Origin: Fibrobacter succinogenes
GTDB lineage: Bacteria > Fibrobacterota > Fibrobacteria > Fibrobacterales > Fibrobacteraceae
DNA length: 64,000 nt
Assembly: GCA_902762305.1 (NCBI GenBank)
Contig: CACWNW010000002.1
Location: 124,001 to 188,000, forward strand
Reading direction: 5' to 3'
Below, piece by piece: positions 54,850 to 57,247 of the stretch. Within the stretch, counting starts at the first letter, position 1. Each line of letters starts with the position of its first letter. Made by a program: the position numbers and the translations under genes. Below the pieces are notes generated by a model that worked only from the letters and a program-made list of their open reading frames with translations, had not been told where the DNA came from and made no database searches.

Positions 54850-56409
54850 TTATTTCTTATACAAGAGGTTTACGCCGCCGAAGAGGGCGCGCATGTTGGC
54901 CTTGAGCGTATCGCTAGAGACGCCGCGGCCTTCGACCTCGGCATCGCCCGCCTTCAGGAGCATGCGGCTAAGCCCGCGGCCCGCCCACAGCTTGTCCTTC
55001 TCGGGAACGACGAGCTGGCGGTACTTCACGAGTTCGACCGGCATGCCGATTTCGCGCATGAGCATGAGGGCGGCCTCGATGGGGCCTTCTGCCGTCACGG
55101 ACTTCACCAGCGCCTCGCCATCCTTCTTGAAGTGGAAGATAAAGCGGTTTTCGTCGGGAATGACCTCGATGTTGTTGAACACCAGGCGTCCGTTCACGTT
55201 CACGCGCTGTTCGCGGAACACGTCCAGCACGCGCTCGGCAGAGAGCTCGCCTTCTTTTTCGCTGCAAGCCTTCAACACGGGCTGCAGTTCCGCGGCTTCG
55301 GCCAAAGACATCTTGTAGCCGAACTTCGTGATAATCTCGTACACGGCGGTGCGGCCGCTCTGGCTCGTGAAGCTCAGGGCGTCGTTCTGGTGGCGGCCGA
55401 TGATGGAGTAGTCGATCGGGCGGTAGGCGCCCTTCTTCATGTCCTTCGTCTTGCTTGCGCCATCCTGGTGGATGCCGCTACGGTGCACGATGGCCTCGGC
55501 ACCAATCAGCGGGGCACGGCTGTAGATGCCGATGCCGGACCACTGCGAGATGAGAATTGCCGTCTCGTAGATGCGTTCCAGGTGCAGGCCGGTATTCACG
55601 CCGGAGTTGTGCAGCGCGACCGCGACTTCGTAGAAGTTCGTGTTGCCGCAGCGTTCGCCCAAGCCGTTCAGCGCGACTTCGAGCTGGGTTGCGCCAACGA
55701 AGAAGCTTTCGACAGTGGCGGCAGTCGCCATGCCCAGGTCGTTGTGGCAGTGCACCGAAATCGTGATGTTCTTCGGCAGAGCCTCGTACACCTGCTTGAT
55801 CTGGTTCACATACAGGAGCGGGCGGTAGCGTTCCACCGTGTTCGGCAGGTTGATGGTCGTCGCACCGGCTTCGACCACGGCCTTCAGCACGTCAATCACA
55901 AAATCCATGTTCTCGAGGCAGTCACCGAAATGCTCGGCGCTGAACTCCACGTCGCCCTTGTCGCCCACGAGCGACTTCGCGAACTTCACGCAATGAACCG
56001 CCTTCTCCTTGACCTGTTCGGGGCTCAGGTGCAGCACGTGCTCCATCGAGAGCGGGCTTGTCGCGAGGAAGGTATGGATACGCGGGTGCGGCGCAAACTG
56101 CACGGCCTCCCAGCAGCGCTGGATATCGCTTTCCACGCAGCGGGCCAAGCCCGAAACCACGACGCGCTTTGCCACCTCGTCGCCTTCCTCGGCCATCTTC
56201 GCGGTGAGCTGCGCCAGTTCCTTGCAAGATTCAAAGTCCATCTCGGACGAAGCCGGGAAACCGACTTCGGCACCCTGCACGCCGAGTTTCAAGAGCTGCA
56301 GGTAAACGTCCTTTTTCTGGGCGTTGTTCCAGGGCTTCGGGAGCGCCTGGTTGCCGTCACGCAGGGTGACATCGTAAAAGAAGGGTTGTCTTGCATTAGC
56401 TTCGTTCAT
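54850..56409 (-). CDS. leuA: 2-Isopropylmalate synthase
   Basis: The 519-residue enzyme has the HMGL-like barrel start (DVTLRDGNQALPKPWN), the metal-binding HCHNDLG and the NGLGERCGNTN block, then a C-terminal regulatory-type domain. It condenses acetyl-CoA with 2-oxoisovalerate in the first step of leucine synthesis. The KPWN element fits the LeuA2-like branch rather than homocitrate synthase. AAGGAGA precedes the ATG. A leucine attenuator (56480-56640) lies upstream, which supports leucine as the end product. No other leu gene is adjacent in the window. Confidence 0.9.
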   Translation of the reverse strand: MNEANARQPFFYDVTLRDGNQALPKPWNNAQKKDVYLQLLKLGVQGAEVGFPASSEMDFESCKELAQLTAKMAEEGDEVAKRVVVSGLARCVESDIQRCWEAVQFAPHPRIHTFLATSPLSMEHVLHLSPEQVKEKAVHCVKFAKSLVGDKGDVEFSAEHFGDCLENMDFVIDVLKAVVEAGATTINLPNTVERYRPLLYVNQIKQVYEALPKNITISVHCHNDLGMATAATVESFFVGATQLEVALNGLGERCGNTNFYEVAVALHNSGVNTGLHLERIYETAILISQWSGIGIYSRAPLIGAEAIVHRSGIHQDGASKTKDMKKGAYRPIDYSIIGRHQNDALSFTSQSGRTAVYEIITKFGYKMSLAEAAELQPVLKACSEKEGELSAERVLDVFREQRVNVNGRLVFNNIEVIPDENRFIFHFKKDGEALVKSVTAEGPIEAALMLMREIGMPVELVKYRQLVVPEKDKLWAGRGLSRMLLKAGDAEVEGRGVSSDTLKANMRALFGGVNLLYKK

Positions 56410-56479
56410 TTTTTATCTCCTTGCCGGCTCCATTACGCCGCAAAGTCCTTTTTCCAGTTCAAAAATAGCATTTTGCCAT

Positions 56480-56510
56480 AAAAAAGAACCCGCTTCGTAA
56501 CGGAAGCGGG
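56480..56510 (-). terminator. Attenuator terminator in the leuA leader
   Basis: On the minus strand CCCGCTTC (56510-56503) and GAAGCGGG (56496-56489) form a perfect eight-pair stem with a six-base loop, followed by TTC and six T (56485-56480). It lies 70 bases upstream of the leuA start and 34 bases after the leader-peptide stop. GGAGCGAGG within the leader peptide gene (56551-56559) can instead pair with CCCGCTTC, using one G-T pair and a bulged A, which would act as an antiterminator. The hairpin also has TTTTT on the plus side. Confidence 0.85.
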
Positions 56511-56544
56511 CCTTTTTAGTTAAATCCTATCCAAATAAAATAGC

Positions 56545-56604
56545 CTAAAACCTCGCTCCGTGCGCGATGCAAAGTAGAAGTCGAAGGTTAAGGTTCTTTC
56601 TCAT
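56545..56604 (-). CDS. leuL: leuA leader peptide, Leu-rich, 19 residues
   Basis: The short gene encodes MRKNLNLRLLLCIAHGARF. Five of residues 5-11 are leucine, read by CTT four times and CTA once, codons that this genome uses less than CTC and CTG. Its position between a strong promoter and a terminator upstream of leuA is that of a classical attenuation leader. If the ribosome stalls at the Leu codons, GGAGCGAGG downstream in the same gene is free to pair with the terminator's first arm. The predicted transcript start is at or within a base or two of the ATG, so it may be translated leaderless. Confidence 0.85.
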   Translation of the reverse strand: MRKNLNLRLLLCIAHGARF

Positions 56605-56611
56605 GCTATAG

Positions 56612-56640
56612 AATATACAAAGTTTTGGGCTACATGGCAA
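56612..56640 (-). promoter_or_regulatory. Promoter of the leuA leader
   Basis: On the minus strand TTGCCA (56640-56635) and TATATT (56617-56612) are separated by exactly 17 bases, five of six matches to each sigma-70 consensus. The expected transcript start is about seven bases on, at 56605-56604, next to the leader ATG. Confidence 0.8.
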
Positions 56641-56764: not shown

Positions 56765-56995
56765 TTGGGGATTAAACAGCCTGATTTTCGCCCGTTCAAT
56801 CCCCAAAATTTTAATTTATCTGCAATAAAAACGGCAAAATTTATGTTCATTGGGGATGAAATCGCCACAAAACATCATTTTAATCCCCATAAAAAGAGAT
56901 TTCACCCACCCTGACGGGTCCGCGGCGCCCAAAACTCATTACTTTATACACAAAAATGGGGATTAAAACGCTAAAAAGCAACGTTTTAATCCCCA
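56765..56995. repeat. Array of three inverted pairs of a GGGGATTAAA motif
   Basis: In this 430-base gap without a long gene, GGGGATTAAA-like motifs occur in three head-to-head pairs. Pair 1 is TTGGGGATT (56765-56773) with AATCCCCAA (56798-56806). Pair 2 is TGGGGAT (56851-56857) with ATCCCCA (56883-56889). Pair 3 is a perfect 14-base arm TGGGGATTAAAACG (56957-56970) with its complement (56982-56995) around 11 bases. On the minus strand pair 3 is followed by TTTTTG and may serve as terminator for the antitoxin-like gene; pairs 1 and 2 are not explained by that. The rest of 56641-56760 is purine-rich (GGGCGCAAA-like) with nothing recognised. Confidence 0.75.
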
Positions 56996-57040: not shown

Positions 57041-57247
57041 CTAGCGTTCCTCCCAGATACCGTTCGGAAGCTTACCGATATCGCGGAAGTCCAGTTCACC
57101 GCCGGAACGCGCAGAAGAAACGTTCACGAGACGCGCGAGCGGTTTGCCCGCACGCTCAATCACGATTTCTTCTTGCGAGAGCGAAACCTGGTTCAGCAAG
57201 TTGCCGAAGTTCTGCCTCGCCTCCATGGCGGTGACGGTCTTCGCCAT
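57041..57247 (-). CDS. Orphan Phd/YefM-type antitoxin-like protein
   Basis: The 68-residue product begins MAKTVTAMEARQNFGNLLNQ and continues with IVIERAGKPLARLVNV, the pattern of Phd/YefM antitoxins: an N-terminal DNA-binding region and a short C-terminal toxin-binding arm. The start is three bases after the ompA-like stop, so it rides on that transcript. No toxin gene (RelE, Doc or PIN type) is next to it on either side; the array of inverted GGGGATTAAA motifs follows. It may be a remnant antitoxin, a solitary repressor, or work with a toxin elsewhere. Confidence 0.78.
   Translation of the reverse strand: MAKTVTAMEARQNFGNLLNQVSLSQEEIVIERAGKPLARLVNVSSARSGGELDFRDIGKLPNGIWEER

Follow-up and report, generated by a model that had tools for sequence, protein, structure and literature searches.

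A highly probable leucine attenuator upstream of leuA, conserved across the class Fibrobacteria, with a leader peptide gene that is very probably leaderless

The window analyzed here, a stretch of 64,000 nucleotides of Fibrobacter succinogenes DNA (GCA_902762305.1, contig CACWNW010000002.1, positions 124,001 to 188,000), carries leuA on its minus strand. The leuA product scores 542.8 bits against NF042434 (cut-off 500), and its identity to many named Fibrobacter and Fibrobacteraceae records is 85-99%. The elements that precede the gene are given below in the direction of transcription, with window coordinates:

56635-56640, minus strand: -35 element, TTGCCA; this sequence or a near variant is present in nearly all Fibrobacter leuA loci
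56612-56617, minus strand: -10 element, TATATT, 17 bases past the -35 element; it ends 7 bases before the leader ATG
56545-56604, minus strand: leader open reading frame (ORF) of 19 codons, MRKNLNLRLLLCIAHGARF and then TAG, with its ATG at 56604 and five Leu in seven residues
56572-56592, minus strand: regulatory Leu codons, codons 5-11 (CTT AAC CTT CGA CTT CTA CTT), from the alignment of 37 Fibrobacter sequences
56582-56597, minus strand: segment 1, which overlaps the Leu codons and is an arm of the protector hairpin (1:2) predicted by the minimum-energy fold of the leader
56551-56559, minus strand: segment 2, the antiterminator strand GGAGCGAGG, within the 3' end of the leader ORF; covariation indicates that its GGAGCG pairs with 56503-56508
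56503-56512, minus strand: segment 3, the terminator 5' arm GGCCCGCTTC, whose CGCTTC is the partner of GGAGCG
56487-56496, minus strand: segment 4, the terminator 3' arm GAAGCGGGTT; the core CCCGC/GCGGG is invariant in 37 sequences
56512-56487, minus strand: terminator hairpin, followed by a tail that ends in six T
56480-56485, minus strand: terminator T run
56417-56422, minus strand: Shine-Dalgarno sequence of leuA, AAGGAG, from the sequence
54850-56409, minus strand: leuA, 2-isopropylmalate synthase of the LeuA2 type (NF042434 above cut-off), with its ATG at 56409

Promoter, 19-codon leader, antiterminator strand, terminator, and leuA are thus found on the minus strand in the order of classical attenuation, each in the place that the earlier note had assigned to it from this single sequence. 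Features that characterize a classical ribosome-mediated attenuator can be read from the DNA: a run of the relevant amino acid (five Leu in seven residues ahead of leuA), an intrinsic terminator between the leader ORF and leuA, and an antiterminator whose pairing with the terminator 5' arm is mutually exclusive with the terminator.

All 61 genomes searched contain leuA or a relative of it. Wherever sufficient upstream DNA was available, the gene is preceded by a Leu-run leader (49/49 loci, with 37 sequences from Fibrobacter and others from f2, f3, and f5, three more families of the class), and the same is true of all 59 named Fibrobacter or Fibrobacteraceae loci with sufficient upstream DNA, a set that overlaps the first and includes F. 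intestinalis ATCC 43854. In f4, another family of the class, a genome with a different leuA subtype also has a leader, MTQTIQQSLFLLLQLHKG, whose promoter reads TTGACA-17-TATTCT-6-ATG. Across the 37 Fibrobacter sequences, the five aligned leader codons specify Leu in 35, 36, 36, 37, and 36 cases, respectively, while the codons themselves are swapped synonymously among CTT, CTA, CTG, and TTG. Retention of Leu while the codons change is a hallmark of selection on the amino acid. The earlier note had proposed such an alignment as a check on its reading, and both retention of the Leu run in relatives and a compensating change in the antiterminator (described below) were seen. On this comparative evidence, the leucine attenuator is real and is conserved across the class.

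Same-type leuA genes are present without the leader in three non-Fibrobacter records; consequently, the leader is not just carried along with the leuA gene. Nine genomes from outside the class showed no clear leaderless Leu leader in their leuA regions, and no such leader was found upstream of ilvB and hisG in seven genomes. Among the nine, a locus in a genome of the same phylum (L310, genome G052) contains the ORF MQFKHNISVYQRALLRLIRPRGGAQG with LLRL codons, GGAGGTGCG, a pairing terminator, and a different leuA; it is perhaps an older relative of the Fibrobacter attenuator.

The pairing between the antiterminator strand and the terminator 5' arm was assessed in an alignment of the 37 Fibrobacter sequences, which gives 34 distinct rows. 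GGAGCG and its variants are matched to CGCTTC or CGCTCC in 98.5% of the cells, a level reached by 0 of 500 shuffles, and all slid registers remain at or below 61%. One pair is G-C in 16 rows, A-U in 10, and G-U in 8, and it is broken in none of the 34. For the 3' base of this pair, at alignment position 199, the antiterminator partner is kept in 34/34 rows, while the terminator partner is kept in 18 and the base is unpaired with respect to the terminator in 16. Because this base is always paired within the antiterminator and often not within the terminator, it is held by the antiterminator. Within the genus, a single antiterminator pair changes on both sides; in other families the pairs themselves differ (GGCGGG/CCCGCC, GAGTG/CACTC, and AGGAGTG/CACTCCT). 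The segment at 56551-56559, first proposed as capable of antitermination from one sequence, is therefore upheld by a conserved and covarying pairing. Antiterminator duplex energies are modestly below those of shuffled sequences (mean z -2.1; z -0.9 at the window locus), and since such z-scores are weak evidence in single sequences, covariation was used instead. The putative protector hairpin 1:2 appears in single-sequence minimum-energy folds.

Another role for translation of the leader has also been weighed. The leaderless attenuator RNA of trpL in Sinorhizobium meliloti has functions in trans, as does the peptide that it encodes (PMC7298713), and the Fibrobacter leader peptide or the short attenuated RNA might act like peTrpL or rnTrpL, either besides attenuation or instead of it. 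Residues of the leader peptide beyond the Leu run, such as GARF, are indeed partly conserved. However, the conserved residues of the tail are encoded where the antiterminator strand GGAGCGAGGTTTT lies, so that the pairing explains their conservation, and in other families of the class the peptide is dissimilar. Action in trans is thus considered very unlikely.

Attenuation by a translating ribosome is also what the spacing of the elements would lead one to expect. In 44 of the 49 loci, the start of the antiterminator strand lies 10-18 nt past the final Leu codon of the run (23-24 nt in the other five), whereas, measured from the stop codon, that start shifts by 32 nt, between -25 and +7 nt. 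The footprint of a ribosome extends about 12 nt downstream of the A-site codon. Consequently, a ribosome stalled on the Leu run would leave the antiterminator strand accessible, while a ribosome at the stop codon would hide most of it. This geometry agrees with a ribosome-controlled switch. Given the size of the comparative set, the footprint rule can be read from it directly: the distance from Leu run to antiterminator stays mostly within 10-18 nt and the stop codon moves.

The likelihood that such an arrangement arises by chance was estimated in 2.06 Mb of the same genome, which contains 15,456 ATG-started ORFs of 12-30 codons. At least five Leu in 8 residues occur in 73 of these ORFs, and a promoter that ends 6-7 bases before the ATG occurs in 52. 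Both properties are combined in the leu leader alone (about 0.25 expected), a joint rarity that makes chance a poor explanation. This bears on the idea that the hairpin is an ordinary constitutive intergenic terminator and the Leu-rich ORF incidental. Intrinsic terminators are common, and a permissive scan of 1.26 Mb yields 1,068 candidates; yet an incidental ORF would account neither for this joint rarity nor for the synonymous conservation of the Leu run, the antiterminator covariation, and the spacing. Such a terminator is an extremely improbable account of the locus.

The leaders also differ from the genome in their choice of codons. CTA makes up 3.1% of the 42,039 genomic Leu codons vs 37% of leader Leu codons, an enrichment of about 12-fold, and CTT rises from 23.0% in the genome to 42% in the leaders; CTG and CTC account for 24.8% and 32.9% of the genomic total. 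Thus, of the earlier suggestion that CTT and CTA are both less used here than CTC and CTG, the part concerning CTA stands, while CTT proves about as common as CTG. The codon choice fits a sensor role. For the Salmonella leu leader, the portion of PMC1183508 that describes Carter et al. 1986 relates that a change of CUA to CUG lowered the sensitivity of attenuation.

The position of the leader ATG relative to its promoter is nearly fixed. In 48 scored loci the gap from the -10 box to the ATG is 7 bases in 33, 6 in 14, and 8 in one; 43 of these loci have a -35/-10 spacing of 17. With gaps of 3-12 permitted in the named set, 48/59 loci have a gap of 7 and 5/59 a gap of 6, although these gap figures are slightly favored by construction because the leader-calling script rewards good promoters. 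The letters between the -10 box and the ATG vary among loci, and such a constant distance over changing letters would be expected if translation is fixed to begin at the transcription start or beside it. There is no Shine-Dalgarno sequence ahead of the leader ATG, since the upstream bases are those of the -10 box and the 7-base variable stretch. The leader start is predicted to lie at the 5' end of the transcript or within about 2 bases of it, and the leu leader is very probably leaderless.

Alternatively, leucine attenuation could be real but not leaderless, with transcription starting further upstream at another promoter or with the ATG-proximal promoter not being the main one. Two weaker promoter-like sites are present upstream, at about 56808-56905, and the leaderless 5' end is itself a prediction. 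Nevertheless, the upstream DNA is not conserved, and several relatives have the end of another gene a short way upstream of the promoter. In addition, the distances between -35 element, -10 element, and ATG are constant throughout the class, and the leader ATG is without a Shine-Dalgarno sequence, whereas leuA has one. A start further upstream is therefore regarded as unlikely.

The leaderless start is favored, and the coincidence of the predicted transcription start with the leader ATG, noted earlier from the single sequence, is backed by the fixed distance across loci. The accompanying view that such a start is unusual does not hold: it is known elsewhere, is shared by other attenuators of this genome, and looks common in the genome at large. 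Among promoter-like matches, the ATGs of ORFs of at least 100 codons show a sharp peak at 6 or 7 bases past the -10 box, with 41 cases vs about 10 expected (a background of about 5 per position). Leaderless translation thus seems common in Fibrobacter, a point of relevance for start-codon annotation in these cellulose-degrading rumen bacteria. As a separate observation, the proteins at L114, L144, L164, L169, L177, L185, and L199 begin MKPIxEYxDYRK...QDYYEE and are apparent paralogues, and several genes of this type have a near-identical leaderless promoter (TATATT, gap 6-7).

Sequence comparison establishes the elements, their conservation, the antiterminator covariation, the codon bias, and the spacing, and from these it is highly probable that the locus is a ribosome-mediated transcription attenuator that senses charged tRNA-Leu by way of a leaderless leader peptide gene; for the exact 5' end, ribosome loading, the leucine response, and the protector hairpin, we infer the following. 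The first transcribed base would be the A of the leader ATG or one beside it, and the 5'-terminal AUG would be where a ribosome loads. When leucine is short, the ribosome would stall at the CTT/CTA run with the 3' edge of its footprint just short of GGAGCG. The free GGAGCG would then pair with the CGCTTC of the terminator 5' arm, forming the antiterminator, and leuA would be transcribed. When leucine is ample, a ribosome at the stop codon would cover GGAGCG and the terminator would form, ending transcription about 70 bases before leuA. If no ribosome is present, the modeled 1:2 hairpin would leave segment 3 free, making termination the default. In this way, a rumen Fibrobacter very probably turns its first gene for leucine synthesis on and off by ribosome stalling on a tiny Leu-rich gene.

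Control of the terminator by a riboswitch, a T-box, or a protein-binding leader, for example of the L10 or PyrR kind, is a further alternative. A search of the region against Rfam, whose leader families include those for Thr, Trp, L10, and PyrR, gave nothing above gathering threshold. At a relaxed threshold it gave sub-threshold matches to unrelated leaders alone, the weak ones to L10_leader (29 bits) and Thr_leader (24 bits) being below the gathering scores of 44 and 55 bits; the probability of such control is close to negligible. The Rfam family for the Leu operon leader had no match reported at the Fibrobacter locus, even at the relaxed threshold.

In enteric bacteria, the leu leader belongs to a conventional leadered transcript and has a ribosome-binding site of its own; in Fibrobacter, by contrast, the leader ATG is predicted at the 5' end. 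Otherwise the attenuator resembles leuL of Salmonella and E. coli in having a competing antiterminator and an intrinsic terminator before leuA and, as far as the discussion of Carter et al. 1986 in PMC1183508 goes, a run of Leu codons with the rare CUA. Attenuator leader peptides are made from leaderless transcripts in Streptomyces lividans (LeuL, IlvL, and TrpL; PMC8079986), and the ilvB leader of Corynebacterium diphtheriae likewise encodes a leaderless leader peptide (PMC5784534). Fibrobacter would share with these Actinobacteria a leaderless leader peptide before amino acid genes, in some cases with Rho-independent terminators (PMC8079986, PMC5784534). However, what precedes leuA in Actinobacteria is the LEU element (PMC1262725), a different structure that is without a typical terminator and is thought not to work by classical attenuation, whereas Fibrobacter has a terminator and an antiterminator (PMC8079986, PMC1262725). 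In S. meliloti trpL, the 5' end of the attenuator RNA is the leader peptide ATG (PMC7298713), as predicted in Fibrobacter; the amino acid is Trp there and Leu here, and functions in trans have been shown for trpL. Mycobacteria have leaderless polycysteine attenuators (Canestrari et al. 2020, as cited in PMC13236596), which are similar in that a short leaderless ORF contains a run of codons for the amino acid under regulation; they differ in preceding cysteine operons and in having no obvious terminator in a comparative study (PMC1262725).

A search of the open-access literature, with most subscription journals outside it, gave for Fibrobacter no publication that deals with attenuators or with leaderless transcripts. 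The present locus thus extends ribosome-mediated attenuation, its leaderless version included, to a phylum for which no description was found in that literature. Leaderless attenuator peptides are already known; the more novel parts are the putative class-wide leaderless design and an Ala-rich leader, described below.

The leu attenuator is one of at least four of such build in the genome. A scan for leaderless leader ORFs with a terminator, covering 57% of the genome, gave 12 candidates, of which three are convincing by amino-acid run and downstream gene: the leu leader, a trpB leader, and an Ala-rich leader before an aminotransferase gene (NF005334 above cut-off). A fourth leaderless leader lies upstream of trpE. 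Without the promoter and ATG filter, a broader scan that accepted every ORF with an amino-acid run and a terminator gave too much noise for interpretation. The additional leaders are as follows:

L065 (G000:C3 90396-90435, plus strand): Trp-run leader MKMNSAIRFNRWWWGSRT with terminator and antiterminator, before trpB
L082 (G000:C8 87238, minus strand): Trp-run leader MVNATSTIFNRRWWRGL with terminator and antiterminator, before trpE
L084 (G000:C11 98644-98682, plus strand): Ala-rich leader MNKIFGQNLAAAAIAASPAAARAIMGLSRETKICKA with terminator and covarying antiterminator, before the aminotransferase gene

These leaders are kept in the genus, with gaps mostly of 6-8, and the trpE leader reaches a sister family. 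Their antiterminators also show compensating changes, for example from GAGTCCG/CGGACTC to GAGTCTGG/CCAGACTC in the trp leaders and from GGGGCTG/CAGCCCC to GACTG/CAGTC in the aminotransferase leader. Whether leaderless initiation is the standard build of attenuators in the class Fibrobacteria (those of leuA, trpE, trpB, and the Ala-rich aminotransferase leader) is evenly balanced. If it is, immediate loading of the ribosome at the 5' AUG would contribute to how the switch is timed, and the leader rich in Ala would be an alanine-sensing attenuator of a metabolic enzyme.

Finally, the DNA further upstream of leuA has features of its own. Inverted repeats of the GGGGATTAAA type are clustered directly upstream of the leu promoter, at window positions 56767-56995, a segment that holds 4 of the 9 exact copies in 2.06 Mb; the cluster is absent from the same place in relatives whose upstream DNA was inspected. 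Beyond it, at window positions 57041-57247, lies an ORF resembling a Phd-family antitoxin (TIGR01552 above cut-off), and a coding sequence similar to this Phd-like ORF is found upstream of leuA in several relatives as well.
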